Below, piece after piece: positions 901 to 49,489 of a DNA stretch of 64,000 nucleotides (within the stretch, counting starts at the first letter, position 1; every line of letters starts with the position of its first letter). The notes under the pieces are model-generated. The model ran no database searches and was not told where the DNA came from. It worked only from the letters and a program-made list of their open reading frames with translations. The translations under genes and the position numbers were made by a program. The stretch is from Bugula neritina (Eukaryota > Bryozoa > Gymnolaemata > Cheilostomatida > Bugulidae). The DNA is taken from the NCBI GenBank assembly GCA_964035545.1, contig OZ037766.1:23954767-24018766 (forward strand), given 5' to 3'.

Positions 901-20550
<19,650 letters not shown>

Positions 20551-22071: not shown

Positions 22072-25000
22072 TTACTGTTGACAGCTGTCACTGGCAGCAT
22101 CATATGTCAAAGTCTCGTCAGCACAGGTGGAGATAAGCAGCAAGTGTATAGCTTCTCCTTGATCATTCTCTTCCGCATCAACAATTCTGTTAAAAATAAT
22201 TTGCAGTATATTAAGGAAAGTTAAAATATTTTATAATAAAAAAACGATGTTTAGGACATTTGATTGTTTTGTGCATAACAGAGAAATTAAACATGATTTG
22301 TGTAACAATTGTACTAAGTACATACATTAAATTAGTATTGTAATTACAATACTTTACTTACATTGCATTAGTAGTAGCATTACACTGTACTTAGAATACG
22401 TTAGTATTAGTATTATATACACTGTACTTACATTACAACTTAGTATTAGTATTACGCTCTACTTACGGTTGGCTTAGGGTCTGAATCACAATCTCTGAAT
22501 ATGTTGTTTCGTGATCAACCAGCCTCTCTCTCAGAGTAACTCTCAAGTCATCAGGAACTTCCTTTGTGTCAACAGAGTACACATTGTCAGTTGGCCAATA
22601 GACTGTCAGCACATTTCTGTCACATTCATATGAAGGTGCCATCTCAGTAGACATGTGACAGTCTTGAGTATGCAAAATAAATGTCTCAAATATTATGCTA
22701 ACATTGTGATAATGCATATAAAAGCAAAAAAGCATATATTACAACATAGTACAGAAAACATTGGTGACCAGTTCTAACTATTAGAATAACTAAAAGAATA
22801 AATAATCAATTATCAATCAACATATTTTACTTCTTCTAGCCAATTATTTGAAATTAACATAGTAAATTCTACATCAGTCGTGTTTTATACGATATATTAG
22901 TTTAAATAATTAGCATAACTAAAAGTTTCAGTGATGAATAATTAGCCAAATATATTTTTGACTTCTACTATAAGTAATTTCAGTGAGACACATTATTCAA
23001 TTTACTCAAACACATTAAGTCTGACTGTGGGACATATCTAGTTGGTGGCATCAGTATTTATATGTTGTATTGTTAGTATTAGCTAACCCTAAACCTTAAT
23101 CAATGAATCAAGAGAATAGTATATTATTACCTATACGGAAAACGGGGTCAAGAAGAAATGCAAAATACTAATAATACAAAACTATTTATTTTGTTTAATT
23201 TAGTTTACTTTCTATCCAAGAACACATACAAGTTCAAGCTGCATATAATATATCGAGCATGTAAATGTGTTCTATCGCTATAATAATTTCAATAAAAAAA
23301 TTTATAGTGCTATAAGGTAGCTATAAATTAAACGCATCTTCTTAGTTTTTCTTTCAAAGCAAACAAACAGACAGAAATTACAGCTAAAGCATAATTTATT
23401 AATGTTTTTGGTATTTTTCAATTTGAGTGTGTAATCTAAATTAACGTCATTGTTCTTGTACTTGTTTGTTTTCTATTATATAGTACGATTTAAACAGTTT
23501 ATATTGTTAAATAAATATTCAATTTGAACAATTTTTATTTACCGTTTGCACAAATTCTCTGGAAATGGTTTTTTTGACGAGACAAGGAGTTTCTAAGAGA
23601 ATTCCTGTTGTAAGCATTTCTCAGAGCATTGCACGAGACATGATATTTTGCCATATATGTTAGCCTTCTTACAATTGGTGACTCTGCAAATAAACCATTT
23701 TTATACTAAAAATAAATACATATATGTGTGTGTGTGTGTTGTGTGTGCTGTGTGTGTTGTGTGCGTTGTGTGTGTGCGTTGTGTGTGTGCGTTGTGTGTG
23801 TGCGTTGTGTGTGTGCGTCGTGTGTGTGCGTTGTGTGCGGTGTGTGCGGAGTGTGCGGTGTGTGCGTGTGTGTCTGTGTAATGATGAAAGGTTTCAAACT
23901 AGTTAAGTGTTTTTTAATCATTTTTGAAAAAAGAACCTAATTATCAGATAACACCCAATGCAAGTGATGACTTTATAGCTTACCTAAAACATTGACGTAA
24001 TACTGGCATTCAACTGTGTAATGAGATTTAGTAAACTGATAGATTCCTTTTGGAACTGATACTGTACTACTGCCCGGGAGTGTGACTTTAGCTGTATCAT
24101 GGCCAGGAGTTAGGTATGTGGTAATGTTGGTGTATGGGCATAGAAAATGTAAATCTACAATTATTAACAAGAATTAGCATGTCTTAGAAAGCACTAAGCA
24201 CTAAGGTTTTATGTATGCTAATGTAATTGCTAATGAAATCAGGAAGAATATACATATACTGCTGTGTGTTGAAAAAAGCTCAAACAAAACATTTTGGCTT
24301 GTTTTCCATTTTATCTGATGTGTTTACTTACCAGTCAGTCTGTACATGTCTCTGAGCATCCCAATATATACTTCATTTCCAATTTTGGTTACAGACACAG
24401 GATGGTTTGGCAGCTGACTGCTAATGTTACAAGGGTTCTCACCATTAAAACAGACCGGGCCCACAACCTGCTCATTAAAGTCTACTAATCGCACCATTTT
24501 GCTGTTGTAATCAACGACCAGGTAGACACCTGATTCTAATTTTGCAAACTCTTCTGGGTGGCTAAACATTGCCTGAATAAAGCTGCCATCAACATGGTTG
24601 GAAGAGTGCGAACCAGTGATTATAGTGTTTGTAACAGACCCATCAATTGACCAGCTGACTTGAGAGATATAGTTATTATTTGCTACTAACAAATGGCAGC
24701 CGTTCCATGCTAGACCTCTGGGGCCATCAAACCCAAAATTAGCAACAGTACCTAATTCTCCAGTAGCAATATCTACTGATCTTAGCGCATTGTTAAATAC
24801 ATCGGTAACAAGTAGCCTGCCATGACCTCTCATATCTATTTCAACACTATGAGGACAATTGAATCTACCAACATTTGCCCTGCCTTCTCCATATCCTGTT
24901 TTTGTACAAATACCTGCTAGAGTTGAATAACTGTTTGTTTCCCTGTTCAAGATCTTGATACAATGGTGACCCCAAAATATTGTAGCAACTAAAGTGTCGT

Positions 25001-27067
25001 TTATTTGTTTGAAACTAGTTATGGCAGTACGTTCACCATCTATATTCCCCACAATTGTAGAGACGTTTCCGTCAGTAGTCCGTAGTTCATGTGTTGTGCT
25101 GAACAGAATTTGCCCATCATTATTATATAGATCTTTCTCTATATGGTAGATAGGGTGTGAAAACTCAAGAAAGTGGCCAGAATAATTGAATGAAACACTA
25201 CAAGTATATTAGTTTAACAAAATATTATTATAACATTATTATATTGTATAAAAATCTTGTGCTAGTTAGACTAAGGCATTATTATTTGAAACCAATTAAA
25301 GATCTATTGTTCTCTGCTGAAGTGCAGTGGCTTGCACAATAACATAATATTCTGAACAGCTTTGCTAGTAGAGATAGATATTAAAAAATTCTGTCTTCTA
25401 GTCACAATTACAAAGAATTACTGCTATTTTATAAGTTTTAATTGAAAGGTATAGAGTGACCCTTGCAAAATACTGCATGCAGCCGGAGTAGTGACTTAAA
25501 GTGTACCAACTAAGCTCTACTATAATGTGTGAAGTCAGCACTTTCAAAATGAAACATAATAAAGTTAAACAGAATTATTAAAGTCTTTTCTTTTTTAAAT
25601 TGTCAAACCTTTTACAATAAATTATGAAAATTTTATATTAGCAAAACACGAGAAACATACATACGTAAAACGTTTTTCAAGGTTTTAATGCAGCAACGCA
25701 GGTCTTATTTACACTTATTGCATGTGTTGGCATTTTACCTTTTTTAGGCTAAAATAAGCAAGTAGAATGTAAGTTAATGCACCATCCTAGGTACTTACAG
25801 ATATGGTGATACTTACCTTGGATTATAATTCACACTCTCTGCATATGTTTTCGGGCCAAATATTAACACGAAAACCTAAAATTTAACCAAAAAATTGCTA
25901 TATATTATTTAAAAAAGAAAATTTAACTCCACTAAGTTCCATTAGTAGATGAATCAATAGTGATGCATGATATACTGCATTGGACATTAAGCTATACTGA
26001 TTTTTATTTATAATATTCATTGTACGTTTCAGGCTTGATTAATACTATTACTGTTATAATGGATATCATAAAAAACTTTTCCATTGCCAGTGAAGAAATC
26101 ATCTGAAAATGATTTTGTTTTTACAATAAAACCAGATAAAGCAAACTACAAATATTTAGTGGTCATGCTAAGTTACTTTCACCTAAAGCTGTTTTGCAAT
26201 GTAAATAAATGCAAGTTTACAAAAATCACTAATCATATCATTTAGTCTCGAAAATTATGTCTATATAACATTATTTTTTACACTTTCCAGAGGAGCGTAA
26301 CTGAATTTATTTGTATGCTTAGTCATAATACATCTGTAAAACAACTGGGTTAATAATTACCATGCGAGTTGGTTTTTAGGAAAAAGTTCAGTTTTTCAGC
26401 AACTTAAATTGATTTAGCATGCAGGAAGCAGATATTGCAATTGTATATGTTAGTGTGTGTGTGTGTGTGTGTGCGCGTGTGAATTCGCAAAACTTAAAAA
26501 AAGAATGTAAAACACATATGCAGTGCATTAGAAATATGTCTATATAGCAGCAGTCTACCTTTAGTAACATATATTATGTAATAAATAAGTGTAAATAAAC
26601 AGATGATGGGTAGTCTTAGCGTTTGACAAAGAAGCAGTTTCTAGAGTTTAAATAAAAACATATGCAAATGAGTATAAAATGAACTGAGCGGCCAATAATA
26701 TGAAACCACATGTATAACTATATATAGATAGATAGTGTCTAATTTGTTTCTACGTTTCAAAATAACTTAATGAAATAAAAGTGAAAGTTGATGAATAATT
26801 TAGAAATGAAACCTTTATAGATAAATGGATTCAGCTTCTATCTAGATATACTTTGTAGCAACATATAAAAATATTCCACTGAATAAATTTAACATATATA
26901 TCAAATTCTACTTGTTATACAACTTTTAAATACTGTAAAATATTTTACCAGTACTGTTTTCAATAAAACATCATATTGAAAAAAAAACACTTAGTTCTAG
27001 GTCTGTGTTCTAATACTGCAAAGATAACATGTTTGTCACTTACAGCAACCAACAGATGGTGCGTCAT
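22072..27067 (-). CDS. Secreted NHL-type beta-propeller protein with the novel C-terminal cassette, 523 aa
   Basis: Exons 5'->3': 27067-27044, 25875-25817, 25197-24332, 24154-23984, 23683-23543, 22662-22467, 22186-22072 (TAA 22074-22072); 1,572 nt in frame. Two tiny exons together encode a signal peptide (MTHHLLVAVFVLIFG). One 866-nt exon (residues about 28-316) carries repeats of NHL type, such as AGIC..GYGEG..FNCPHSVEID, LLVTDVFNNALRSVD, FDGPRGLAWN and LVVDYNSKMVRLVD. NHL/six-bladed propellers usually bind proteins or glycans; no catalytic residues were identified. Residues 317-523 are the four-exon cassette shared with the two laminin-like genes. It is nearly identical to the gamma-like copy over its last three exons and early 3' UTR, indicating recent segmental duplication. 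The propeller call rests on motif spacing only. Confidence 0.88.
22310..22466 (-). repeat. Minisatellite with repeated 5' splice-site-like units (NHL CC3-CC4 intron)
   Basis: Starting at the real donor, the intron repeats degenerate units of the type GTAAGTACAGTGTAAT plus TACTAATACTAATGTAAT. The same intron in the two laminin-like genes has the same repeat. Confidence 0.75.
23719..23880. repeat. Compound TG/TGCG minisatellite
   Basis: TG repeats organised into roughly 13-bp units of the type TTGTGTGTGTGCG, inside the CC1-CC2 intron of the NHL gene. Confidence 0.9.
26453..26482. repeat. Short (GT)n run in NHL gene intron 1-2
   Basis: About 30 bp of GT with a GCGC interruption; simple sequence only. 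Confidence 0.8.
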
Positions 27068-27729
27068 TTTCTCTTCCAGGCTTATGATCCTCTTTCCTAT
27101 ATCTAGACTTTCTCGTAGGAGCGGTAACTAAATAACTAATATGATACACTCTGCAAAGAATGAGTTTAAAATAGTCTAGTTTAATCAAAAGCAGTTGTAT
27201 TACAGCAGGGAAGTGGGTGATAAAAGCAAAAATAACTGAAGCTTGACTTGCTCTATATTATGCAAAGGTCAAAGGGATTTTGGAGGGAACCAAAACTAAA
27301 AACTCCACTAAATAGTCACATGAGTTTTGAAAATGTTTGCTCATAAAGATTAATTCTTATAATAGGTCAAGCTGATGTCATGTTGCCTTCCGCTTTATAT
27401 TAAAATATCTTAGATAAACAAATCAGTATACCAGGAAACAACATGAAAGTCTGCATGTAACCTACTGTAAAAGCAGTACTTGTAGTGACAAAATATGATG
27501 TGGCACTGTAAGATATTCAAATACAATACACGTTTGTAATAACTAAAATTTTTTTAGTCTCTAGGAAAGAGAGCTTATTAAATACATTAGTTTTGAAGCT
27601 TCCAAATGACAGCAGTTTTGGCAAGAATGCTGCAAAATGACTACTAAGTTTACTGAGAGTTCATATGCTTGGGGTGTCAACTAGAGTTCATGCCTTATTA
27701 AATCTAACAGCTATAATTAGTAGATCTAT

Positions 27730-27893
27730 CACTGCGTTTCCATTATCGCATTATGCGAATGGATTTTTTCATTCAGCTAATGGAAACAGTTACATCGGAT
27801 GAAACCGCAACTATAAGGTAATGCAAACCACAAACCACAAATAATCCGTACGAAGCATTCATTCGCATTATGCGCAGTCATGGAAACGCAGCG
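27730..27893. mobile_element. MITE with CACTGCGTTTCCAT termini
   Basis: The left end CACTGCGTTTCCAT...ATGCGAATG mirrors the right end CATTCGCATTATGCG...ATGGAAACGCAGCG; the element is about 164 bp. TAT flanks both sides and may be a 3-bp target duplication, which would suit a PIF/Harbinger-like origin. This is inference. Confidence 0.8.
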
Positions 27894-28781
27894 TATGTGA
27901 ATTATGTCTCCTTGTTATTGTCATAATCAACATCTATATATCACATTTGTATAGTTCTTGCTAACCAGTGTTATCATCATTAACATTCTTAGTAGTCTTA
28001 CCAAATAAATCTACAATCTAGTGCATTACAAGTCAGCACCATCTTGTTGCATATCATTACACTACATACCACCGCGAAAACCTCCAAAATGTCACCAAAA
28101 ATCTCAAAATATATGACATGTATACAAGGAAAAAATATGCTAAATCTGTTGCCGAAAATGCCAAAACTGTTGTCGAAAACATTGAAATGATTGCGTCTTG
28201 AAATAGTATATTCCATTCACATCTTCAGGGCATTACCACAGCCATAGTAGATGAATTACAATAGTTAAAATTTGCAGTGCCTGCTAACAAGTCGACTTAA
28301 ACTTATATAGAAACTTTAATGAAAAGATAATTTCTATAAAAGTATATGTGAATAATGGGCATGCATGTGTATTTCAACATAATTAACCAAAATCACGTCC
28401 TCATTCTATCACTCTTTGTATGTGATTATCAAGGTTTTATAATATGGTTTCTAGTTTATTACCTTAGTATCTATAATATACTCATTATTACCAGTGCAAC
28501 GCATCAAAGCATCAAAAGATAAGAATATAAATGAAGTGAAATTAAAACATGTTTATTGGTCAAACCTCAAAATTAGGAACCTCAGTGAGAAAAGACAAAT
28601 CTCAAAAAGCTGCTAATGGCTGTTTCTAATTTTGAGTTCAACTTGTAAGACAACCTGAGGCATATTTTTACAAACTGAAGCATTTAGTCAGCGCCTAAAA
28701 TGAATTATAATTGAAATATTATGTGTTAGTAATAACTTTAGATGAAAGATATCTATTTCTTTATAACAGATTAATTATAGT

Positions 28782-28787
28782 TTTATT
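28782..28787 (-). terminator. Putative polyadenylation signal of the laminin gamma-like gene
   Basis: AATAAA on the minus strand, about 110 bases after the TAG stop. It is the first canonical signal downstream. Confidence 0.5.
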
Positions 28788-28895
28788 CCCAGGTACATGT
28801 CTTGAAAGATGCAGCCAGCCGTCTTGACAATGCGGCAAGCTTGTAGTTTCGATCAAATATTCTTTAAGTAAATTCAAGTATGTGTTGACATTTTG

Positions 28896-31800
28896 CTAGT
28901 AACAGCTGTCACTGGCAGCGTCATATGTCAAAGTCTCGTCAGCACAGGTGGAGATAAGCAGCAGGTGTATAGCTTCTCCTTCATCATTCTCTTCTGCATT
29001 CACAATTCTGTTGAAATATTTCAAAGTGAAAAACAGTAAAATAGGTTTAAAGCATTTTATTATTCTGTGCATAACAGAGAAATGAAACATGAATCATGAT
29101 ATAATTATATTGCCTTTGCTTTAATATTACTATTATGATTACCTTTTACTTATAGTATTTGTACAACCATTACATTATAATTATTTACAGTACATGAGTA
29201 TCAATATTGCACTGTACTTACATCACATTAGTATACATTCACTATACTATACATTACATTAGTATCAATATTATACACTGTACTTACAGTACATTAGTAT
29301 TATTAATATTACACACTATACTTATATTACATTACTAATAATATTACATTGTATACTTACAGTACATTAGTATTACCATTACACTGTACATACATTACAT
29401 TAGTATTATTACTACGCTATACTTACGGTTGGCTAAGGGTCGGAATCACAATCTCAGAGTATTTTGTCTCGTGATCAACCAGCCTCTGTATCAGAGTAAC
29501 TCTCAAGTCACCAGGAACTTCCTTTGTGTCAACAGAGTACACATTGTCAGTTGGCCAATAGACTGTCAGCACATTTTTGTCACATTCATATAAAGGTGAC
29601 ATCTCAGTAGACATGTGACAGTCTAAATAATATAAAACAAATGCAGTACAGCCAAAATTGGCAGTATTTGGTACAATTAATCTCATTAATATAATAATGA
29701 AGGATTCTTTCAATCAATAATTAGTCAAATATTTTTTATAACTTCTGGCAATTTTTCATTAATATATCTCGTTCTTTAGACTCAAGCACAATAAATCTGA
29801 ATACGAAATATTTAATTTCACTAGTATTGGTTTAACCATTGCTATATAATGACAAAATTACGAATACGGTCTAAAGCTGACTCTGTACACATGTGTGCCA
29901 TTTTTTGCTAAACTGTTTATCTGAAATGAGTAGTCTTTGTATCATGGTACTAAGTTAAACAAAAGATAACGTAGAAATCAAGGTTTATTAATCACTTTGC
30001 ATTTTTCAAAGTGTGCAAAACAATTTGGTCATTACTGTGGTTGTCCCTTTTTCTCTCATAATGTTTATATAAAAGATATGATGATCTTGAGTCCGTAACA
30101 GCTTTAAGTATTATGTATTTACCATTTGCACAAATTATCTGAAAATGGCTTCTTTGATGAGACAAGGAGTTTCTAAGAGAATATCTGTTGTAGGCATTTC
30201 TCAGAGTATTGCACGAGACATGATATTTTGCCATATATGTTAGCCTTCTTACAATTGGTGATTCTGCAAATAAACAATTTCATAATAGAACAAATAAAAT
30301 ATTAGCAATTAAGCACAATCTAAATGAAAAAAATATTTATGTACCACTTCAAGCTATTAAAAGTCTTTTCATTTTTTCTTATTCGTCAGACAATGTTATG
30401 TACCATATAAGGCTAAATTCATAGCTTGCCTAAAACATTGATGTAATACTAGCACTCAACTGTGTAGTAAGATTTAGTAAACTGATAGACTCCTTTTGGA
30501 AACGATACTGTATTACTGCCCGAGAGTGTGACTTTAGCTGTCTCATGGCCAGGAGTTAGGTATGTGGTACGTAATATTGGTGTATGGGCATGAAACATGG
30601 AACCATTTTATAGAAAGCAGTGACCCATGTAAGCTAATGTCATTATTGCAAAAAATTGAAAATTAATTTGCAGTGAAAATAGCTTGTTTCACTGAATAGA
30701 CATGAGTCATAGCTAAATACACAAAAATTTGCATTTGTTATACTAAAAACAGACCAGTAAATTCTGACTTTCAGCTACAGTGTGAAAAGAAAGATAAAAG
30801 GGATGAACTAATGTTTTGCTAGCTGCTAAATTTGGGGCAGCATGTTGTGAACTCTTACAGCTGCTGTTTTGCAGGCATGGGATCAGCCATTGAAACAGTT
30901 GCTGATTGCATACATGCACAGGTTTTGGAATGCTGTGCTTCTATGTAGCAAATTGGACCAGCTTAGTTTGCTACTTAGAAACGCAGCATTCCAAAACTTG
31001 ACACAACCTTTGAATATCCATATTGTAAATTTATAGTATCATTAGAAAAAAATAGAAAATTACTTTCTTGACTGAAACCAGCTTACGTATATTAAATCAT
31101 GTTTTGAAGTAAAGTATATTATATAGATGCTTAAATTCTGTTTTCAAAAAAATTTATGAGCGTTGGTTTAAGAGTATAACGAAGTAGCGGTGGTCTGGCG
31201 GTTAAAGCACTTGCTTAGTAAGCACAAAGTCAATGGTTTGAATCTTAGCAAAAGCAATTGGTGATGTTAGAAAGAGCATCCAGTCATAAATGCTCCTGCA
31301 TGTACAACATGTAAATAAATCTTCAGTCTGTCTAAAACCCTTTCTTATTAGGGATGGCGACTATAAACCCATGTGGGTATAAAGATATTTTTTTGTTTAA
31401 CAAAATCTTTCTTCTTGTTAACGACACATAATGCTGTGCTGACTTACCAAAAACATCAATAAAATAAATTGACTTGTCATTCCCATGTGTTTTAGCAAAC
31501 ATGTATGAGCCTTTGGGAAAGTACCAGGTGTATTCACTGTTTGGCAACTGCACTGCTGTCATGTTTTGACCAGGATTTAGAATAATGCTGATGTTTTCCC
31601 CAACAGATAAACAAGTACCCACTGCAATGAAAATATGTAAAGTTACATCAAACTTCAAAGTGTTAGAGTTTGTAAGGAAATGATTTCAATACCATGTAGC
31701 AGCATAATATTGGCAGATTTCTGTATTAAACAACTAGTCCATGTTGAATCATGAATACAATATGAAGAATGTATACGGGCTTTTTATAGCAAAAATAGAT

Positions 31801-34800
31801 TAAAGATTTGCATTAATTGACTTTTGCAAACTAAAATATCACGAATACAACACCTACAACTGTTACCTTGGTCAATATGATCACCAGATATTGCTCTAAC
31901 ATAAAGCTCAGTTGGTTTACATTGAGTATTGGAGTCATTGGAGAAACCAGAACTGCAACCTTCGCTATTGAGAGAGTCCAGACTGTGGTAGCCAGATTTA
32001 CATGTGTCACAGTTTAAGCCTTCAACATTTATCTGTATTTACAAATACAGCAGCATAATTAGAATCGACCAGCATATAATGTTATCACAAATTTCCGAAT
32101 AAAGTGTTTTAAAAACCAGAATGTACGCATAATGCTTTCAATCTGATTTCCTAAATTGAACAATCTAACAATTGGTTGCATGGTAAACTTGTTAACAATT
32201 TGCCAAAGTACAACTTGCTAAATGCAACAATTTTACCTGATAACTATTTGATAAGATCAGTGTGTGACTATTATTGCTATATATCAGCCATGTGTCTTAC
32301 CTTGCATTTGCATTGACCAGTCACGCTGTCACATTTCACGGTATTATTGAAGCTGCCAGCCTCTACACACTGACATAGCTTGCACCCATTGACCCCAAAG
32401 TCATAGTAGTTAGCACTGCACCTATCACATTTCAAACCTTCTACTCCGGGCATACACGTGCACTGCCCATTCATGTCGCACTGTGGACTCAGAGCTCCTG
32501 AGATATAATATAATTTGTATAAATGAAGTATTATTAAGTATTATATTATGAGCTTTCAAATGAAATCAATTCTATAATCAGCTTCATGTTGAGGGTGACT
32601 GAGTGCAATAGTTTGGGGTTCTCGGGTTGGAAATTGGGCGCTCTAATTTCAAATTCAAACTTGAGAATCCCAAACTTCTGCACTCGGTCACCCCCAACTG
32701 GAGCTGTCTATAAAGCTATTCTTCCAAATGTGTGTCTCAAACAATTTATTTGATTGCTGTAGAAAAAAGCAAAGGCTCAAAATTTCAAATAATTACATAA
32801 TACAAGTTATCCGTATATAATGTTGCCGTAATTATTACAAAAGCTACCCATTCATAGCCACATTTTTAAATTATCAACTCACACAATTTCTAAACTTTTA
32901 AAGTGTAAGAAATGCATTTAAATATCTGAAATACTTACGGAGCAAAATCAGTTATTTCTGTAACAACTCTATATGTCAATGTATGAAAAATTTGTTTTAA
33001 GCTTGATAAACATGCCTAAGCCTGCAGTAATGCATATAACTATTGCCTGTTAAACATACATCCTAGTGCACATACCTATTTCGCTACATTCACACTCTAT
33101 ACACAGATTTGCAGGAGTTTTTCTGAAATAATTTGCTTTGCATTTTTCACAGTGAGGACCATCTGTGAAATCTGAGCAGTTCTGGCAGTATCCACCAGAG
33201 CCGGTCTGGTCATAGAGGGTTTGGTTGAAGACACAGCTATTAGATTTATTATTACACTGGCATTCTACAAAAGTCATTTTGTGAGTGAGTTATATTACAG
33301 CAAAATTTGCTGCGATATAACTCACTCACGGGACTTTTCTTAAATTTAAATTTAAGAAAATTTTAAATATCAACTGAATAATATAATTTGAAATTTTATA
33401 AATAACTATTTATGCCTAAGTCTTAGCTGTGATTTACCTTCATTTCTATTTTTAGCCACCGAAGATGATCTACTCTTAAAAGCTTTTTTGCTCAACTTAT
33501 GGCTACTATATATGACAACAATGGTATATATTGTATGCTATTTGAAAGATTAAAAGCTGTATTATTTGTGGAATATGAAATAAATTGTGCAGAATTATAC
33601 AGCCATACGTTTTTGAGAAGTAAATACAGCTCACTAACTTATGTTTTTTTAGTAAAACTTTGACAAAAAGTGTTGAAAATGTTGCAAAATTAGAAAATTA
33701 TTTAGTTTCATTTGTTAACAAATTATTAGTTTTAGGCCACATTACATTAGCAATTATAAATCTCTATAATAAATCAAAAATGCCAAAATGCAGTGTGTAA
33801 TAAGTAAAGTAAAATGACCCTAATACTATGCAAAAACATTTTGGATAAAATATTCATACCTTGACAGGTGTTTGTGCTGAAGAAGGTAGCTCGAGTCCAA
33901 GGTGCATCATTGTGAGTCTCTAGACATTGGTTACAGTCAGGGCCAGTAGTTCCATGCTGACACTGGCATTCTAACCTAGATTTACCATTTAGAGGGTTGG
34001 TCTGTAGCACACATTTGTTAGCGTGACCGTTACATTTGCACCTACAAAATGATTATTCAGGTACATAAAATAAACTTTAATTCTATAATGTAGATTGTTG
34101 TTCCTTGCATTTGTAAAATAGAATAAAAGCCTAGTTATAATATTTTATGCATGCGTTATAACACCTTTACATGCAATAAGATTAAGTTTTATAACCTTGG
34201 GTTTTACTAACTACATTTGCTAAATGGAACAAAAAAGCTGCATTGTAGTCTTTTTATTTTCTGCTCAGATCTATGATATACAAAACAGCACAAGAAACAT
34301 GGCTGCTACATAATATAACTTGTTTTTATTAATCAAAATAATTTGACTATAGTTAGCTAAAACTTTTGATTGCAGATTACATAACATTATACGGTCAATT
34401 ATTATATAGTGCAACTTCAAGTATGCTCTATCTGATGGTGATCGGAATCTCACTAATTGCAACACAAAGCAATCTTCAGTTTGATAATAGAGAATGGCTT
34501 AAATTCTTTTCTAAAGTAGAGTTTTTTTCAGGCGTTTTTATTGCAAGCTATAGCCTTTTAATAGTTAGCCGAAACTGTAACGAGTTACACATAATATTAT
34601 GTAATGTATTTACCATCGGCTTTATCTTGCAGTTGAGAAATTTCAATAGCTTCATTGCCCTTTATGATGTAGCCGACAAAAATATTGCATTCATTAAAAA
34701 TATATTTTTCCTTAAAATTGGGGGCCTAAGCTAGGTGTTTTCTTACTTATAAGTTTACAAATTGTATTTATACAATAATGTTTTGAATGAACTTTACCTT

Positions 34801-37800: not shown

Positions 37801-39057
37801 GTAACTTATATAATTATATTGCCTATCACTTATAGAAGAATTCATTCATTTAATTAAAGTAGCTATAATCAATGCGTACCATTTAAATCAACCATATTTG
37901 TTGCAGGATGTTGCTCAGCTAAGTTGGTAGAATTGGCGTCACAATAACTGCTTTTTACAGATGATGAAGTTAATGGGTAAAATATTTTGAAATCGCTCAA
38001 TTTCTGAGAGTCAAACACTTGGTCATCTGATTGAAGCGTATCACCACACGTGTGACTTGCATCTATCTGAAAAGTAAATATAGCAAGTGATTTTCAAAAA
38101 TTCAATAAAGCATTTAAAACAATTGGTATATTTCCATGGTGATGAAGCTTGAGTTAGACAGAAAAAAAAGGGAGGAGGGGGTATCAGTATTGCTGACTTT
38201 TTTTGTTTAAATTTATTATTGTATAAAGTTAAACATTCCAAGTTTATCTAAACATTTCACTAGTAGAGGCACAGTTGTGGTCTAATGGTTAGAGCATCCT
38301 TTCAATAAAAAGTGTCAAAATAAAATTGAATGTACTAATAATACTAAAGTAGACTATTTTTACTAAAGCTGAATGAGAAAAACTTTACTAGAGGGTGTGG
38401 GCTACAAATGCTTTTTGAAACTAAATTTGAATTTCTATTCATAACACGCTGATGGTTTAAATATTCAAAATTATGATTTGTTTTACAATGAAATGTGTTT
38501 TTGAATGTTGTCACTTTTATACATGTTTTTAAGTATAGATATCAGCAAATAAACTTTCTAGCTTTAAAGATTCAGTTTATAGCCTGATGTTGAAAAAAGA
38601 AAAGATTTTACTAAAAATCTGCGAGCTTCTAGCTATATCAATAGCAGTAATAAGTACAATAACCGGGAAAAATATTGCCAGTAGCCATTAGAAATTATTA
38701 TAATATGCTGCAACTATTTAATTTAATTAAAAATTAACTCGAAGGTTGAATGCTTTAATATTTAACACTATAACTTCCCATGCTTCTAATAAATCTTTTA
38801 TTGATGCATAGGGGCGTAGTCAAAGTGTGGTCGCCACTGAGTTATAGCGAATTGAACACTTTCATATAACTAAATTTAAGTAGATTTACTTAGTATGTGA
38901 TTTTATTACTTACGGGCAATCCAAAGACAATATTGGAGAAGAAAGGTTCACATCTAATCGCTTGTCCAGCTGAGTTATAGCAGGGGGAATAACTTCTTTG
39001 CCCACTAATTAAATTGCAACACAGTGTTAACAGCACTGCTTTTACTAGCAAAGCCAT
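28896..39057 (-). CDS. Laminin gamma-type short arm (LN + LE) with novel C-terminal cassette, 735 aa
   Basis: Exons 5'->3': 39057-38914, 38066-37880, 37154-37062, 36947-36793, 36018-35878, 35114-34984, 34041-33860, 33264-33076, 32497-32301, 32032-31867, 31621-31448, 30263-30123, 29622-29427, 29007-28896 (TAG); 2,208 nt in frame. The start has a strong context (GCCATGG) and a signal peptide ([19 protein letters not shown]). Residues about 20-283 are a laminin N-terminal domain of gamma type: [64 protein letters not shown]. Residues 284-528 hold about four laminin EGF domains, the last partial. Residues 529-735 are the cassette. There is no laminin IV domain and no coiled coil, so it cannot form a laminin trimer; the layout is netrin-like, but no NTR domain is recognisable. 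LN domains mediate laminin polymerisation, so a matrix modulator is inferred. Confidence 0.93.
29110..29426 (-). repeat. Minisatellite with splice-donor-like units (gamma CC3-CC4 intron)
   Basis: Reads on the plus strand as repeated ACATTAGTATTA and ACTGTACTTAC blocks, 30-45 bp apart. On the coding strand this gives repeated GTAAGTACAGT motifs following the true donor. Confidence 0.75.
30432..30595 (-). pseudogene. Dead duplicate of cassette exon CC1 inside the gamma-like gene
   Basis: It aligns at roughly 90% with the functional CC1 exon of the NHL gene (24154-23984). Lesions: a 4-bp insertion near 30568 (frameshift), CAG to TAG nonsense at about 30453, donor GT to GC, and loss of the acceptor region through a deletion of roughly 35 bp. 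The gamma-like gene instead uses its own CC1 at 31621-31448. Confidence 0.88.
30919..31000. repeat. Hairpin, 34-bp arms, in gamma-like intron
   Basis: Left arm 30919-30952 and right arm 30967-31000 (TTTTGGAATGCTG against CAGCATTCCAAAA) with a 14-base loop. Probably a MITE-like snapback; no coding. Confidence 0.75.
31185..31320 (+). mobile_element. tRNA-derived SINE in gamma-like intron
   Basis: It has a Pol III box A-like TGGTCTGGCGG and, about 35 bases on, a box B-like GGTTTGAATC, followed by GAAAGAGCATCCAGTCATAAA, a tail type known from tRNA SINEs with LINE-derived 3' ends. It does not fold convincingly as a real tRNA gene. Confidence 0.65.
32588..32698. repeat. Imperfect hairpin, about 42-bp arms, in gamma-like intron
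   Basis: Left arm GAGGGTGACTGAGTGCA and right arm TGCACTCGGTCACCCCC are complementary over about 42 bases with mismatches; the loop is about 25 bases. Confidence 0.7.
33281..33329. repeat. Perfect-type hairpin next to a 3' splice site
   Basis: Arms GTGAGTGAGTTATATTACAG (33281) and CTGCGATATAACTCACTCAC (ends 33329), almost no loop. It lies about 15 bases upstream of the acceptor of the LE2 exon on the minus strand. A second palindrome, TTTTCTTAAATTTAAATTTA and its mirror, follows at 33335-33360. Confidence 0.85.
38266..38312 (+). mobile_element. tRNA-like SINE fragment
   Basis: GTGGTCTAATGGTTAGAGCA is a classic tRNA/SINE box A region; the copy is truncated after about 45 bases. It lies in the first intron of the gamma-like gene. 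Confidence 0.5.
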
Positions 39058-39085
39058 GGCTAAACATTCACTCCAGTTCAGCTAG

Positions 39086-39093
39086 TATATATA
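39086..39093 (-). promoter_or_regulatory. TATA-like box of the laminin gamma-like gene
   Basis: TATATATA on the minus strand about 30 bases upstream of the ATG at 39057, implying a very short 5' UTR if used. Sequence match only. Confidence 0.35.
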
Positions 39094-40401
39094 GTGGTTG
39101 CTAAAGTGTGGCAGCTATCATATGCTGCCTACATTATATAAACGTTTGAGTGCTTGCTTGCCAGTTTAGACTGCAATCAACCCCAAAACTTCATCCAGTA
39201 AGAAACTCCTAACCATATTATAACAGAATTATTCAGTGTAGCAAGCCACGCCCAACTCAAAAGTCACGTCCTGTTCCATGGCCCCACCCATTTAGTTTGT
39301 TGTCAGTCCAAAAATTGACACCAAATATCAACCCAGTAAAACAATTAACCATGAGATGCACCAATTGCTGAGCTGAGGAGCTCCTAGGTTTATTAATCAC
39401 ACAATAATTGATTCTTAATAGATAATATATATCCACTTATCTACGAACCTAGAAGGTCAATTATGCTGATACACACATAACGTGTATAATAGATACTTAC
39501 TATCTATAGTGAATAATCAGGTTCATCTAATGTAATTTTGCACTTATACATATCATGTTAATGTTTACTTTCCTTCATTTGTTATATTAAATTGCAAAGA
39601 AGTTCTCAGAATAAAATTTGATAGTGAAAAGCAACTAAACAAGTTTGTTGCGATAACTTTTTGCAAGGGTTGACTACCTTCTAAACATTTGAGAGTTGAA
39701 AAATTATGTAATTTAAAGTATACGAACTTCAAACAACACATCATTGAAACAATAATTTCATCATCATATCTATGGAGGATGTCATTCTATTCCAATTACT
39801 GCTAAAATTTGCATTAAATTTAATTTTGAGGAAACTGTAATTGATTTCATACATGCATAGTCTAGCTACTTTCAGCTTTATTAGATGCGCTGTCTGCACT
39901 TTCAACATCCAGATGGATCATTGCTCATGGAATTTTTAGCTCATCCTGAAATTTCTTTATTCTACAAACTAGCATTGCCAAATAATAGCTGAAGTAAGTT
40001 TTGAAACTTGAAAGCCAACAGAAAATAATTTTTAATTTTATGTTGTCTGTTCTGTATTCCTGGTGTGTGCAAAAATGTTGGTGCTTTTTTAGCACAAAGG
40101 AAATGTATAGTGAAAAGACTTTAAACATTTTATTAAATGATTCATTCAATAGGCTAAACAGCGCACATGCACAGTTAATTACCTCTAATTTCTTTTATCT
40201 ATAACACTGTTTTTGATAGGTGAATATTTTGCATATATAAGCATGTAATCTCCAACTAAAAATTAACATCATAAGTTTAAAGGGCAAATGCTAAAAAGCT
40301 GAATTGAGTATTACTCTTTCAAATTGTGTTAGCAAGCATTCTAAAAATTCACCCCTTATAGTTGATATTTTTAGTGATATTCGGAAACCCTAAAAACCCA
40401 T

Positions 40402-41003
<602 letters not shown>

Positions 41004-41139
41004 TATATATGCTAGCATTTTGCATATGCTAGAATTTTGCAATGCTCGTGACTCCTAGGTAACCCCTAGAGTCACTTGAGCTCTCTGGCCTGAGTTTACA
41101 CACCTTTTAAATATGCTTTAGTAGAAACATAAGTTTCTA

Positions 41140-41221
41140 CTATTGCGAAGGTGTGGGCCATGGTACTCTGTTCTGTGCTGATGAGGGGACAAACCCCGAA
41201 ACAGCCGCTGTCCACAGATTG

Positions 41222-41310
<89 letters not shown>

Positions 41311-41316
41311 TATATT
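41140..41316. repeat. Mobile-element tail plus (TA)n array
   Basis: CTGATGAGGGGACAAACCCC then GAAACAGC, a stem-loop type seen at ends of dispersed animal repeats, followed at 41224-41316 by a TA array with one ATGTATA interruption. Confidence 0.5.
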
Positions 41317-41596
41317 ACCGCAAAAAGAATACTGTAAGCAATAGTGCAAGGTAACATCCCTTTCATTATAATTATTAGTCAGCTTTGCTATATTTGTGTA
41401 TTACTCATTGAGCTGTCTGTAAATCGAATCAAATAAAAACAAATTCTGACCAGCTCGCAACTTCCATCATGCAGTAATCTTTTTATTGCCCAAAAAAAAT
41501 TTTTTTTTTACTGAAAAAACAATATTCATGATATCACCTGAGATATTTTCCTTACTGTTGTTATTACCCATTAAGTCTAGGCAAAGTCATGTTAAA

Positions 41597-41599
<3 letters not shown>

Positions 41600-41639
<40 letters not shown>

Positions 41640-41643
41640 TGTG
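41600..41643. repeat. (GT)n microsatellite
   Basis: About 40 bp of GT repeats. Confidence 0.9.
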
Positions 41644-43228: not shown

Positions 43229-46200
43229 ATGATGAAGGTAGCACGGGATGTCAAAACCACTCTTTTGCTTCTTACTGTGTTGGGTTAGTGAAATGTGATA
43301 TTTTCTTTCCATAATTAACACTTTTTAGCCTTCAAGATCTACTTATCTAAATGAAAATAGGTGTTTTTGTGTTCTATAAGAAGTTATTTTTGCTGTATTA
43401 TTTGACTGAAGCATGCATACCTATAGCTATCTTTTTTTCACCTATAATGTGGTGTGAAGTTTGTTTTTCTGCTACATACATTTCTATAGCTGTATATATG
43501 CAGAATGAGATATATGTATGTATATACATATGTTCATATATACATATATGAACATATGTATATATATGTATATATGTATATACATTATATTATACTTTTA
43601 AATTAAAGATGACAATATAATATTCTAACTACAATGTTGATTATTGGCTGCAGTTGAAGGTATTCTTCAAAGACAATGCATAATGTTACTAAAATTTTGC
43701 TAATAACTGTTAAAATAAAATCATAGGCATTTAATCGTTTTGTAGGCCAACTTCTCATCGTAAAACATGCAGATGCTGTGCAAGCTTGTGAAGAAAGAGC
43801 TTGTTATCTGCCTACAGGGAACTTGTTGATTGGCAGAAGACACCTTCTAGCAGCCTCATCAACATGTGGCCTCAACAACTCGCAACAATACTGTATCCCT
43901 GGCCGTTCTCACAACCCCAGATGCTACCCTTGTGATAGCAGACAACCGTGGTCAAAGAACAACACTCACAGTCATAACATCACCAACATCATTGCTTCTT
44001 CTTCAAACAAAAGGCTTAAAAAATGGTGGCAAGCTGAAAATTTGAAAGAAGAAGTGTCTATTCAGTTAGACTTTAACGCCGAGTTTCAATTCACACATTT
44101 GATTATTATATTCAAAACTTTCAGACCTAAGTCGATGTACATTGAGAGATCTGCTGATTTTGGTAAGACATGGCACAAATATAGGTACTTTGCAGAAAAC
44201 TGTAGCCACAGTTTTCCTGGAATTTCTAGAGGTCCAGTTCAGAGTTTAGAAGACTACATTATCTGTGAGGAAAAGTACTCCAACGCATTACCAAGAAAAG
44301 GTGGTGAGGTTAGTTGGGTAAATAGAGGCAGTTTTTGTGAGTTGTGCAATGCCTCAAGAATATGCTACAATAGCAGTAGCAGCTTTTTATGATCTTAATA
44401 ATATGGCATTCAATAAACTGTGGTGAAGTGCAAAGGGTCATATGTTTTAAGAAAATTAGTTTTCATACAAATTTAAATGCCATATAAGACTTTTCAACTT
44501 GTCAACTTTGCAATCTTAAAATTCAACCGTGCATATAAATTAATGTTAAGTCATTTTTAGATCTTGAAAAAACTCTGTGTTGCAATAACCTTTGTGATGA
44601 AAATATTGTCCCCAAACTGATTTTGCATAACAAAGATTTGATGTTCAACATTACTTATTTTAGTATGAAACAATGCTGTGGCTTGCGTTTTAGGTTGTTT
44701 TCAAAGCTTTGCCTTCTAATGTCGTCCTGAATCCATTTTCTGATGAAGTTGACAATCTTTTAAAACTAACTAATTTGAGGATCGTCTTTAAAGAGCTGCA
44801 AACGTTGGGTAAGTTTAGTTGACTTAACTTTGACATAGAGCCAATTTAATATAATAGTAATTTATTAAAGAATTCCCATTTATCTGCTTAAACATTTTGC
44901 GCAAGGTCAATAAACTTATTCATGCATTAGAAAAAATACAAAAGCTATATTTGTCATTAACTTTAAAGTTGTTCAGTGGCTTTGTGATTTTTCTATATTT
45001 TATAAATTTGATTTTTTTTGGTTTAATGAATTATGAAAATTATAATTTTATTAAATATAAAAAATTGTTAAAGTAGTATATCACAAATGAGCAAACGGTA
45101 ATGAAAATTGAATAACATTAGGACTAATAATGCATATATAATCAGTACATCAGGGATGTGCAACAGTATCTTAGTAGAAATATTTTAATGCACAGCTTTT
45201 GAGGATGTTTTTGTTGCTAAAACTATATGTTATAGCTTTTTCAAATCTGTAAGCATGCTCAATTTATGTAAGTTTTAGCCTACCAATTAAAATCGCCAAA
45301 AGCATTACATAGTTGTTGCATTTTATGAATAATGTCGCATCTTTTAACATCTTAGTCACATACTCAACTCGAATATGCATTTTAGGGCAAAACATAACAG
45401 CTCTAACTCCTCAGTCAAGCAAACAATACTATTACGCTATCTATGACATGGTTGTGAGAGGAAGTTGCTCTTGTAATGGTCATGCCCCACAATGCAAGCC
45501 AGCTGATGGAGAAGATCCTAACACGAGATACATGGTCAGTTACTACTCTCATTATAATAAATGGATGCTAGTCACATTGTGTAATAGTAAACATACAATG
45601 AAATGGTGACACACTGGCATGTCATAACAAGGGCCATCATTTCATGTTGTGACATGGTGCTTGTTGACAAACATTTATGTCGCATCGTTATGCCCAGACA
45701 GGGTGTCACAATACCCTGTCACATCATAGCAGCAAGCTAAAATTCACCTACCAATTGTTCCTTAGGTATATAAACACCATTGCTTATAGCTATAATGATT
45801 AAAGCAACACGATTTAAAAAATATAAATAAATCCTGCTTACCTGCTTTCTACACTCCTATGTATATAACTGTTATAAGTGATGGTTGTTAAGGTCTACAG
45901 TCAATGTGCGTGCACTCATAATACGAAAGGCAAGAACTGTGAAATGTGTGATGATTTTTATAATGACCGACCATGGGCTCCAGCTAAAGGAACTGAAGCC
46001 AACCAGTGTAGAAGTATGTATATTACTTACAGTTTATTTGTTTTCAATTTAACAGATTTTGTGCTTTTTAAAGTTTATTAGGTAAAACTGGTTTTAATTG
46101 CCCACTACGCTGTATATAGAGGTAGAACAAACTTACTTAACACTAATTTTGTAAAATTTCATAAAGAAATACCTACACTTTGTTTTTGTAGTTTCGGTCT

Positions 46201-49200
46201 CAATTATAAGCTAACCATGCTTGTTGTAAAGTATGTATAATGCCGTAAAGGTTTCTGACTTTTTAGTGTGTGCATGGAAGCCTTTTATCACAATAATTGA
46301 CAAAAATCAGGTGGACTTATCTCAATGACAAGACAATTATTGTTGCCTTTATGATTTAACTATAAGAACGGACTTTATGTTGTTTCACTTACAATTTACA
46401 AACTCAATTAGTTCAAATGAAAACTACAATTTTTCAAAAATGTGTGATGTAGTTACAAAAATCACATTTAATATACCAAAGCAACTCAACTACATTTTAG
46501 GGTGTGAGTGCAATAATCATGCGAGCAGTTGCCATTTTGATCCCGCTGTCTACCACGCCTCGGGAAACGTCAGCGGAGGTGTTTGTGATAATTGTCTGCA
46601 TAACACTGCTGGCCTCAACTGTGAGGCTTGCAGACCTGGCTTTTACCAAGACCCAGTGAAGGATTTGAAAGACAGATATATATGTCAGCGTGAGTGAATC
46701 ACAATATCATAGCATTCGACTACTGATATATTATCGCATTATTCTCGCATTGTTATATAACGTATTATTATATTTTATTACATTATATTATGTTATGTTA
46801 TCTTATTTTATATTATATTGTCTTTTATTCTATTTTCTTGTATTATTGTAAGTTATATAAGAGTGTATTATATTGTGTTATAATTTATTATATTATAATA
46901 TATTATGTTATAATCTTTTATATCGTATTATATTATTTTACAATATATTATATTATGCTTTTTAAATTATATTATATTATATATGGTAGTTCTTCTAGAC
47001 CAAGCAGCTACATGTCACCGAATAAGCATTTTTAGCAAAAAATCTAAATGGAGGAATTATAGTGAAATCACATTAATCGTAGACAGGCAAAAAAGATGTC
47101 TTAACTTCCAACGTTTGAACTTGTCCATATAATCTGTGAACTATATAATTGAAGCTCTATATATGTGATGTTGTAGCATGTAACTGCAGCTTGTTAGGTG
47201 TAGACCCAAACTCCGTGGAGCCATGTAATGAACGAAATGGACAATGCATGTGTTTACCTAATGTGGTTGGCAGATCATGTGACCAATGTTTGCAAAATCA
47301 TTGGGGGTTGGCAAGTGGTGCAGGTTGTCTGCCATGCATGTGTAGCCATGAAGGAAGTTCTTCTTTGCAGTGCAATGAGGTTGATGGACAATGTTCATGC
47401 AGAGCCGGATGGAGTGGAAGGCAGTGTGATCATGGTATGCTTTTACACCAGAGTGCTTAAATAATTCATATACGTATATAATATGATATTTAAAGTGTAT
47501 TATATTATATAATGACGTGTATTCTATGAATTTGTTTATTTGCTACTTGTAGTAGTTTAAAAAAAAACTTGAGCAATTTTTTTTTAAATATACAATAAGT
47601 TTTCACAAAAACTCACGAACTATTAATTTTAATTCCTTTTTATAAGCTAAAACAATGCATATTTTAATCATTATATGTGTGTATGTATATTACAGTCTTA
47701 TACTTTTTTAGTTATGGAACGGTTAAATAGTTCTTGTCCACATCAAAATCTTACTGGCTACTTGATTCCGGGACAAACAAAGGTCAAGGTCAAGCTGCTC
47801 GATGACTTTTTTGGTGTTTTGGCAGAAGGAGTTCATCAATTTGTCAACTTATATGATTCTGAAGAGTGCATTTATTTTGCCAACATTATGAGTGAGTCAA
47901 TTAGTTGAACACTGCTTTGTAGTAACTTCTCATTAGTGCAATGAGTCATGAGTTATACAGCTTTTAATACACCCTATACTCATATTTGACAGTGTAACAA
48001 CTATAAGAGCATCATTATGCATTGGCATGTATACTGGTTACGAATTTATAGTGATATATTTGTTATTACCTTCTACCAAGGGGATATAATTTCTTGCTAC
48101 TGTATTTTACCATCTTTAGGAATATCTCAATAGTTTTTGAAATTTTTTATATGGTTGCTTTTAAGCCCCTTTACATACCACATCCAAAAGAAACTGCAGG
48201 TGTTACAAAATGTTTTTAATTTAGTTGAGTAGTAATAAATAAAAACACAATTGCTTGTGATGTGCAAATACTGTGCAAAATTTTGTTTACTTGCATAAAT
48301 TTTCTGTTTGCTTACACTTGAATATATTGTTTGTATCGACATAGACTCACCAATACTTAGAAGACTGACGTTCAAAGCTAGCTATGATGATGTGCCATGT
48401 CATTTAACTGTGAATTTATTTAGCGTGGTTTCTATAATCAGAGCTTTAAAGAATCAGATTGATAACTTTCAAGAAGTTTGCAACAATGGTAAGTTACTCT
48501 TTTCAAGATAAAACTTTATTACTCTTATTTACTAAAAAGTGTTTTGAAATATTAAGGGAATACTTTAATGCTTATATAAACATATAAAATATTATTTAGA
48601 CTGTCACATGTCTACTGAGATGTCACCTTCATATGAATGTCAAAGAAATGTGCTGACAGTCTATTGGCCAACTGACAATGTGTACTCTGTTGACACAAAG
48701 GAAGTTCCTGGTGACCTGAGAGTTACTCTGAGAGAGAGGCTGGTTGATCACGAGACAACATATTCGGAGATTAGGGTTCCGATTCTTACCCAAACGTAAG
48801 TAGAGCGTAATACTGATAACATTACACAATAGTGTAATGTTATATAGTACAGTGTAATAATAATGGTGTAATGTAAGTATAGTGTAATGATAGTACTAAT
48901 GTAATGCATGTACAGTGCAATGGCGTAAATACTTATATCATGTATAGATATAGTGTCATGGTAATACTAGTGTAATGTAATTGTGATGTAATGATAACAA
49001 TAAAGTAATGCAAGTATAACAATGTAATAATAATGCTAATGTAATATCATTACAGCTGGGTACAATGTTAAAACTTTAGTTAATTAGCAGGGAATCAGCA
49101 GTTTATTAAATTTAATATAAAAAAGCTTGAAAAGTTTTTTCACAGTTCATGCTGTTAGTTTCTTTATTTTTTTAGCAAGTTGCCTGTTTGTATAACTTTT

Positions 49201-49489
49201 TATTAATTCTAATGTGTTTAATGGAAACTATATTTTCATTATCATGATTATTTTAGGTTGTGATTCTACCAGCGGTATTTGCATTTTTCAAGGGATATAC
49301 CAGGTTTATAATGTAAAAAGGTTTTAGTCTTGCATGCTGATAATAGAATTTAGTTGTGGTGCTTTTTATTCTGTTTACAGTGTTAAGGCAAGAAAAAATG
49401 TAAAAGGAGAAACGATACAACTGATACTCCGCTCAACCTGTGCTGATCACACCATGACATATGACCCTATCAGTGATGTCTGTCGCTAA
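43229..49489 (+). CDS. Laminin beta-type short arm (LN + LE) with novel C-terminal cassette, 692 aa
   Basis: Exons: 43229-43283, 43746-44308, 44694-44808, 45386-45534, 45893-46013, 46501-46689, 47177-47434, 47712-47891, 48345-48488, 48600-48795, 49381-49489 (TAA 49487-49489); 2,079 nt in frame. The start is the first of two adjacent ATGs. Exon 1 plus the head of exon 2 gives a signal peptide ([15 protein letters not shown]). Residues about 30-270 are a laminin N-terminal domain of beta type: [86 protein letters not shown]. Laminin EGF domains follow to residue 483 ([44 protein letters not shown]), the last truncated. Residues 484-692 are the cassette. No laminin IV domain or coiled coil. Head-to-head with the gamma-type gene. 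Confidence 0.93.
43505..43592. repeat. TATG/TATA palindromic simple repeat (beta-like intron 1)
   Basis: Alternating purine-pyrimidine sequence with a perfect palindrome around ACATATGTTCATATAT; no coding. Confidence 0.8.
46740..46985. repeat. TTATA-rich simple-sequence tract (beta-like intron)
   Basis: Degenerate TATTATATTA repeats over about 245 bp between the LE2 and LE3 exons. Confidence 0.8.
47712..49489 (+). other. C-terminal cassette (CC1-CC4), beta-like copy
   Basis: CC1 47712-47891, CC2 48345-48488, CC3 48600-48795, CC4 49381-49489; entry phase 1, then 1, 1, 2. Eight cysteines, two per exon. CC1, CC2 and CC4 are strongly diverged from the other copies, but CC3 is nearly identical at the DNA level over most of its length. 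Confidence 0.87.
48796..49060 (+). repeat. Minisatellite with splice-donor-like units (beta CC3-CC4 intron)
   Basis: After the donor GTAAGTAGAGCGTAATACT the intron repeats GTAATGTAAGTATAGTGTAA-like units for about 260 bp, as in the other two genes. Confidence 0.75.

Follow-up and report, generated by a model that had tools for sequence, protein, structure and literature searches.

A two-module C-terminal cassette shared by NHL-propeller and laminin-type genes in the bryozoan Bugula neritina

Introduction

A stretch of 64,000 nucleotides on chromosome 2 of the bryozoan Bugula neritina (assembly tzBugNeri2.1, C2:23954767-24018766; here called the window) holds three genes that begin differently and end alike. 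Gene A encodes an NHL-type β-propeller, gene B a laminin-γ-type and gene C a laminin-β-type N-terminal region, and all three finish in the same four exons, referred to below as the cassette. What do these exons encode, and how did one ending come to be joined to unrelated N-termini? The explanation that we consider probable, and the best overall, is that the cassette consists of two modules belonging to an NHL-propeller family, and that it was shuffled onto duplicated laminin ends and reworked by local recombination and gene conversion.

The cassette in genes A, B and C

The last four exons of all three genes are bounded by GT/AG splice sites. In each copy the cassette is entered in phase 1 and continues through phases 1, 1 and 2 to a stop codon. 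The encoded lengths are 207, 207 and 209 residues in A, B and C, respectively, and identity to copy A is 74% for B and 56% for C. Two cysteines are present in 11 of the 12 exons, the exception being exon 1 of copy B, which has one, and both the SPI(V/L)-type landmark and STCAD occur in all three copies. An earlier reading of the sequence alone (the sequence-only reading) had described a shared ending with these phases, about 207 residues long, with typically two cysteines per exon, two landmarks and unrelated N-termini, and the gene models agree with that description. A fourth copy belongs to a gene outside the window, gene D. The exons are as follows:

Gene A, 24332-25208, minus strand: NHL-type β-propeller exon (open frame to 24327; donor after 24332, phase 1, read from the sequence; 5' limit not fixed)
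Gene A, 23984-24154, minus strand: cassette exon 1, a small β module with two cysteines
Gene A, 23543-23683, minus strand: cassette exon 2
Gene A, 22467-22662, minus strand: cassette exon 3
Gene A, 22072-22186, minus strand: cassette exon 4 and stop
Gene B, 31448-31621, minus strand: cassette exon 1, gene B's own, with one cysteine
Gene B, 30123-30263, minus strand: cassette exon 2 (A-type)
Gene B, 29427-29622, minus strand: cassette exon 3
Gene B, 28896-29007, minus strand: cassette exon 4 and stop
Gene C, 47712-47891, plus strand: cassette exon 1
Gene C, 48345-48488, plus strand: cassette exon 2
Gene C, 48600-48795, plus strand: cassette exon 3
Gene C, 49381-49489, plus strand: cassette exon 4 and stop
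Gene D, C2:24028053, plus strand: cassette copy, 9 kb past the window, with an NHL exon at 24026036

Thirty loci of the genome, and the reversed sequences, were scanned with an exon finder that permitted all phases. The genomic sequences yielded 28 distinct peptides for exon 1, 30 for exon 2 and 36 for exon 3, the reversed ones none for any of the three, and the cassette exons are therefore not a product of chance. Phases 1, 1, 1 were the commonest among these peptides (19/28 for exon 1, 14/30 for exon 2 and 32/36 for exon 3). For exon 2, entry in phase 0 scored best in 13 of the 30; in copy A this exon starts with AG, leaving the splice site ambiguous, a point established for copy A alone.

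The sequences divide the cassette into two modules, exon 1 and exons 2-4. Exon 1 encodes roughly 55 residues, is a symmetrical 1-1 exon, is predicted to be all-β and occurs in tandem, up to four in a row, and it reads as an independent, repeatable module. Exons 2-4 encode a C-terminal domain of roughly 150 residues with six conserved cysteines, in which VYWPTD is recognisable even in distant copies. Symmetrical 1-1 modules that spread by exon shuffling form Patthy's class. The cassette resembles them in its phase-1 entry and in its tandem 1-1 exon 1; exons 2-4 differ from them in being terminal and ending in a stop, and could therefore be added at a C-terminus only.

Copies and carriers in the genome

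Genome-wide searches covered the assembly of 215.8 Mb in 295 contigs. The copy A query gave at least 163 exon-level matches and a query from another copy (L040) at least 153. Exon 3 was found at 68 or more places (at least 40 on C7, 23 on C2, 3 on C5, and 1 each on C1 and C9); this count is a lower bound, with 150 candidates scored per query and rows merged by hand. Two places, C7:13623468 and C7:13615458, match exons 1 and 2 and not exon 3 and stand outside the 68. The cassette is consequently not confined to three proteins, as the sequence-only reading had it: beyond those three copies there are an extra exon 1 in gene B, now dead (see below), the copy in gene D and at least 64 more.

At 57 of the 68 or more places, an NHL-type exon lies upstream on the same strand, within 9 kb and with no exon 3 between. 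Likewise, exon 3 lies downstream of 57 of the 76 NHL exons used (of 115 matches, those with an E-value no higher than 1.6e-20, a split exon being counted once). By exon order, then, the usual carrier of the cassette is an NHL-propeller protein. Pfam NHL matched 7 of 13 members of the propeller family, at best with 2.9e-10, and gave no match at E ≤ 0.1 for the propeller of gene A taken alone. A profile of 13 NHL exons matched SOQ1 among PDB entries at 4.1e-20, and the NHL domains of NHLRC2 were matched as well. As a profile, the gene A family thus matches the NHL domains of such propellers as SOQ1, NHLRC2 and TRIM71, from which it differs in that its propeller is followed by the unnamed cassette.

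The 11 exon-3 places lacking an NHL exon comprise B and C, three with other upstream exons, one lone exon and five on C7. At C5:1486259, fibronectin-III-like pieces lie upstream, two of three with sub-threshold fn3 matches; one fn3 piece matches a glycosidase domain somewhat better, also below threshold, and the carrier is probably a fibronectin-III-type protein. At C7:2932706, the upstream side has a Sushi exon (above cut-off) at a distance of about 6 kb, of which 2500 bases are masked, and two FN3-looking pieces that matched no Pfam family; exons 1 and 4 of this copy were read by eye. A query made from it recovered A, B, C and D at E-values of 1e-7, 2e-8, 8e-6 and 1e-6, which places all of them in one family. 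The third copy, C2:31647394 (L048, G000:C2:31639394-31649294), is preceded by subtilisin and P-domain exons (Peptidase_S8, 4e-13; P_proprotein, 9e-16), which make its carrier a proprotein-convertase gene; the cassette there is truncated.

Three minor observations belong here. The lone exon 3 is an open frame (L049:8008-8176, G000:C2:27423895), probably an orphan copy, beside a gene resembling a methyltransferase. A second cluster, at C8:7659392-8734653, contains weaker NHL-type exons (E-values 5e-10 to 8e-4), with no cassette exons among the matches listed. The C7:2932706 query also gave a weak match at C3:31139000.

For alignments, 19 of 31 cassettes, 20 of 31 exon-1 sequences and 13 NHL exons (of 22 listed) were taken, and a weak exon-2 match in L002 was left out. 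Profile searches of protein collections, for which proteins of about 114-362 residues were eligible, matched 4 of 3008 and 6 of 869 candidates. The only named relatives were hypothetical proteins of B. neritina, the others being unnamed fragments from other sources; by eye, P0003 is close to genome copy L038 and P0001 to L018. Literature searches found no paper joining bryozoans with the NHL repeat, and nothing that combined netrin, the laminin N-terminal domain and exon shuffling. Matches for proprotein convertases and bryozoans were, by title, not on bryozoan convertases, and a search on Bryozoa, laminin and netrin yielded work on Dicyemida and Orthonectida.

Genes B and C and their laminin parents

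Upstream of the cassette, genes B and C consist of a laminin N-terminal (LN) domain and laminin-EGF (LE) repeats, in the following exons:

Gene B, 38914-39057, minus strand: first exon, with the start, a signal-like leader and the beginning of the laminin-γ-type LN domain
Gene B, 38066-37881, 37152-37063, 36945-36793, 36018-35878 and 35114-34986, minus strand: remaining LN exons (limits given by codon; splice ends accurate to about 2 nt)
Gene B, near 34040-33861, 33262-33077, 32495-32301 and 32032-31955 or a little beyond, minus strand: four LE repeats, within 31955-34040 (four EGF_laminin stretches; last donor ambiguous)
Gene C, 43229-43283, plus strand: candidate signal-peptide exon (weak; several joins possible)
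Gene C, 43746-44308, 44694-44808 and 45386-45534, plus strand: laminin-β-type LN domain and start of LE1 (first acceptor one of several)
Gene C, 45893-46013, 46501-46689 and 47177-47434, plus strand: about 3.5 LE repeats

Gene B runs from a leader through a complete LN domain and four LE repeats to the cassette, and gene C from a probable leader through LN and about 3.5 LE repeats to the cassette; both models end at the cassette stop. Each gives a Laminin_N match and four EGF_laminin stretches. The Laminin_N match of gene B covers positions 1-233 of 233 (E-value 4e-64), and that of gene C has an E-value of 1e-49, obtained with a model lacking exon 44694-44808. The two genes lie head to head; if the weak leader exon of gene C is correct, its start at about 43229 is some 4.2 kb from that of gene B at 39057.

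Among solved chains, gene B is nearest to laminin γ-1 (1.3e-98, versus 1.9e-89 for netrin-1) and gene C to laminin β-1 (1.5e-157, versus 8.3e-103 for netrin-4). Within the genome, the LN domain of B is identical in 105 of 141 residues (74%) over three exons to that of a laminin γ gene at C8:9.29 Mb, and the LN domain of C in 174 of 262 residues (66%), also over three exons, to that of a laminin β gene at C4:10.67 Mb; exon limits match in both cases. These parent genes also have laminin IV-A (C8) and laminin IV-B (C4) matches, and none of the four Laminin_B or two LAMININ_IV_B matches in the genome falls in the window. The proportion of synonymous differences from the parents is 0.81 for both genes, which is saturated, and that of nonsynonymous differences is 0.152 for B and 0.207 for C. 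Because synonymous differences are saturated while nonsynonymous ones are few, the LN exons of B and C read as old duplicates held under purifying selection.

On these comparisons, B and C are copies of the 5' ends of the genome's laminin γ and β genes joined to the cassette, and not netrins. The sequence-only reading had the cassette taking the place of the netrin NTR domain, a derivation that the laminin parentage overturns. NTR (PF01759) is not among the matches of 19 cassettes at E ≤ 10, and its only matches in the genome are at C1:14200731 and C5:1742159. At C1:14.20 Mb, LN and NTR exons share a strand, separated by 4.3 kb, and mark a separate netrin-like gene on chromosome 1, and B and C are therefore not the netrins of this genome.

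How the cassette reached genes B and C

Each laminin-type gene is immediately followed on its own strand by an NHL-cassette gene, B by A on the minus strand and C by D on the plus strand. A tree of exons 2 and 4 from 29 copies grouped A with B (support 100/97) and C with D (83/84), and placed both pairs in a clade of 15 (98/99) that includes copies from C2 and C5. By this tree, the cassette of each laminin-type gene is closest to that of the downstream NHL gene on its own strand.

Gene B also contains a second, dead exon 1:

Gene B intron, 30430-30603, minus strand: dead A-type exon 1, with an insertion of 4 bases, a TAG in frame and GC in place of GT at the donor

It is identical to exon 1 of A at 153 of 170 aligned bases (90%). 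It follows gene B's own exon 1, with which it shares 69.5% identity, 0.8 kb on. Exons 2, 3 and 4 of B are 92.2% (130/141 bases for exon 2), 93.9% and 92.0% identical to those of A, and over exons 2-4 the nonsynonymous divergence (dN) between A and B is about 0.05, compared to a synonymous divergence (dS) of 0.10-0.20. The events are read most simply as a replacement of B's original exons 2-4 by a stretch of A reaching from its upstream intron to the end of the gene. The sequence-only reading had proposed that the cassette moved as a unit at a phase-1 boundary. The phase-1 entry stands, and the single unit does not always: gene B retains its original exon 1 next to acquired A-type exons 2-4, and exon 1 is a module in its own right.

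The sequences point to the following picture. A large NHL-propeller family in B. neritina is the home of the cassette, which was also joined, probably by exon shuffling, to duplicated 5' ends of the laminin γ (gene B) and β (gene C) genes. Gene B has probably taken exons 2-4 from an A-type copy, with the dead A-type exon 1 left behind, and recombination between neighbours continues.

Gene conversion of exon 3

Among the six pairs that A-D can form, identity in exon 3 is 90.8-93.9%; for the other exons it is 58.7-70.6% in the pairs other than A/B. Its dS is 0.10-0.17 in the six pairs, whereas 10 of the 15 comparisons of the other exons, leaving A/B apart, are saturated and the remainder give values of 0.55-2.34. 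Between A and D, a match of 97.1% extends over 175 bases and is the sole one across the 3.2 kb of D used for the comparison. The propeller exons of A and D (that of D partial) are far apart, on branches of 1.01 and 0.99, so that recent common descent fails to explain the likeness of exon 3. In a cluster at C2:33 Mb, dS is likewise lowest for exon 3 (0.01-0.03, with 0.20-0.43 for exon 1, 0.09-0.10 for exon 2, 0.06-0.08 for exon 4 and 0.11 for NHL); dN/dS for exon 3 there is 2.56 and 0.72, with too few changes to interpret. The pattern of divergence points to recurrent gene conversion centred on exon 3, which has homogenised all four local copies. The shared landmarks of exon 3 are accordingly a product of recent conversion and not of conservation.

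The intron after exon 3 (22300-22467 in A, 29116-29426 in B and 48796-49043 in C) consists of short related GTAATACTAAT-like repeats, alignable among the copies. Such GTAATACTAAT-like repeats may help recombination and conversion of exon 3.

Comparison with known domains and folds

Pfam gave no match for cassettes A and C and one sub-threshold match for B. When 19 cassettes, including A, B, C and D, were scanned at E ≤ 10, 11 families appeared, each in a single member; CMI2B-like and the other single-member matches were rejected as inconsistent among members. No relative was found among PDB sequences, where the best matches had E-values of 0.76-0.91; those to Top7 (0.76) and uL6 (0.91) were rejected as being at chance level. 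The significant profile match that the sequence-only reading had named as a possible refutation was thus not found in Pfam or among PDB sequences.

The predicted order of elements in exons 2-4 is β-α-α-β-β-α-β. The best fold model had a predicted local distance difference test score (pLDDT) of 84.8 and a predicted template modelling score (pTM) of 0.74, and a second model, of a 33%-identical protein, had the same order, with 67.0 and 0.56 overall. As modelled, exons 2-4 show ties to generic ferredoxin/SEA-like folds only and no clear fold match. The NTR, TGF-β-like and laminin-IV folds, with which the sequence-only reading suggested comparison, were not among the structural matches listed, an absence that excludes nothing.

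SEA domains carry an autoproteolysis motif, Gly-Ser, between strands 2 and 3. No match to the SEA profile (PF01390) was obtained among the 19 cassettes at E ≤ 10, and by eye none of 19 aligned sequences had Gly-Ser at that turn, the strands being placed from the fold model. The pattern of exon 1 suggested HYR (PF02494); this candidate was rejected, with 0 of 20 exon-1 members matching at E ≤ 10, and the 10 HYR places in the genome include no cassette copy. Matches of the exon-1 profile to designed leucine-rich-repeat PDB entries (best E-value 8e-6) were also rejected, since the score sums many weak repeat pieces, the best about 4 bits. Judged by these profile and model comparisons, the module is a new domain family, and the view of it as an unrecognised extracellular-type cassette holds.

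Alternative explanations

We considered the possibility that B and C are no more than duplicated laminin 5' ends with NHL-cassette genes downstream of them, and that the apparent fusions are tandem leftovers or read-through without a functional protein. Such an origin would fit their position directly 5' of same-strand NHL-cassette genes and the dead exon in gene B, and no annotated fusion protein was found: a gene C model lacking one LN exon, used as a query against a protein collection that included B. neritina entries, retrieved 295 candidates of which none was a cassette protein (341-1085 residues). Yet all four cassette exons are present in both B and C, additional to those of A and D, and their splice sites, reading frames and stops are intact; the LN exons of B and C are under purifying selection, and dN is below dS in exons 2-4 of A and B; we regard the leftover origin as unlikely. 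Still less likely is that the near-identity of exon 3 reflects a functional contact surface under selection, and not gene conversion. The recognisability of VYWPTD in distant copies would suit a contact surface, but the synonymous sites of exon 3 are near-identical as well, while those of the other exons are largely saturated, and similarity stops sharply near exon 3, as between A and D. A more serious alternative, possible but not the one we favour, is that the cassette is a divergent known domain missed by profiles, either SEA or the S6-like/ferredoxin-like domain of dystroglycan, or HYR/Ig-like for exon 1. What is new would then be a branch of an already existing domain, spread by ordinary shuffling.

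Several points weigh against the shuffled two-module cassette as we propose it. The convertase copy at C2:31647394 has no recognisable exon 1, and its exon 4 is truncated before the last two cysteines. Two of the five models of the first fold prediction were poorer (76.2 and 51.2), the support for C with D is moderate, and the exon joins of B and C rest on splice sites, phases and open frames. The absence of a cassette protein among the 295 candidates counts here too, and recombination by itself, with no function, may account for the concerted evolution of exon 3. Binding of laminin by the LN domains of B and C, and of any partner by the cassette, is a prediction.

Possible functions

Leader-like starts and disulfide-type cysteines suggest that the B and C proteins are secreted. 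Basement membranes across animals share a scaffold of laminin nodes, for which netrin-4 and the α-chain splice form LaNt α31 are the LN-only regulators that we met in the literature. Netrin-4 is reported to compete with β LN domains and to disrupt networks, and LaNt α31 is proposed to act on α LN sites, competing in laminin nodes (PMC9788559). By analogy, we tentatively suggest, with less than even confidence, that B and C are secreted LN-LE stubs that enter or cap laminin α-β-γ nodes, and that the cassette anchors them at a site, on a partner or in the matrix, which the many NHL-cassette proteins use as well. The cassette would be a putative docking or assembly module, and B would be a γ-type and C a further β-type counterpart of netrin-4 and LaNt α31.

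The likeness to these systems is partial. Netrin-4 and netrin-1, like B and C, have an LN domain, about three LE repeats and one C-terminal non-laminin module, and gene C matches netrin-4 at an E-value of 8e-103; in B and C, however, that module is not NTR, and the LN domains are closest to laminin γ-1 (B) and β-1 (C). LaNt proteins share a truncated laminin short arm (LN and LE) and a unique C-terminus (architecture only; PMC9788559). LaNt is an intron-retention form of the α chain, whereas B and C are separate γ- and β-type genes with a shared module of 207-209 residues. They lie on chromosome 2, and the laminin γ and β genes on chromosomes 8 and 4, so that B and C are not intron-retention products. 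With the laminin β and γ chains themselves, B and C share the LN-LE short arm and its exon limits, but they have no laminin IV match in the window and stop after the cassette.

A bolder proposal, rather unlikely as a whole, is that a lineage of bryozoans evolved a promiscuous extracellular module, spread it over at least 57 propeller genes and attached it to β and γ LN stubs lying head to head, giving a co-expressed, purpose-built pair of laminin-lattice regulators coupled to the propeller proteins through this module; conversion would maintain a uniform exon 3 because all carriers have one partner in common.

Apart from this proposal, the genome has separate β and γ LN stubs that carry one extra module, in a phylum hardly studied at this level. 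If the stubs are real, B and C allow a direct test of whether both kinds of LN stub evolved as a pair that tunes the basement membrane. The locus itself preserves an exon-shuffling and replacement event together with its fossil exon, and the conversion focused on exon 3 warns against taking identity between neighbours as functional conservation.

Other features of the window

The remaining features are listed below; the domains of the neighbouring gene or genes at 11859-19573 are together reminiscent of SVEP1/polydom.

11859-19573, minus strand: neighbouring gene or genes, with HYR exons (12869-12970 and 11859-11972), Sushi (15199-15495) and vWA (19280-19573)
51042-52049, minus strand: Tc1/mariner-type transposase pieces, with DDE_3 and helix-turn-helix matches
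19659-20136 and 40390-41015: very long AC/TG microsatellites

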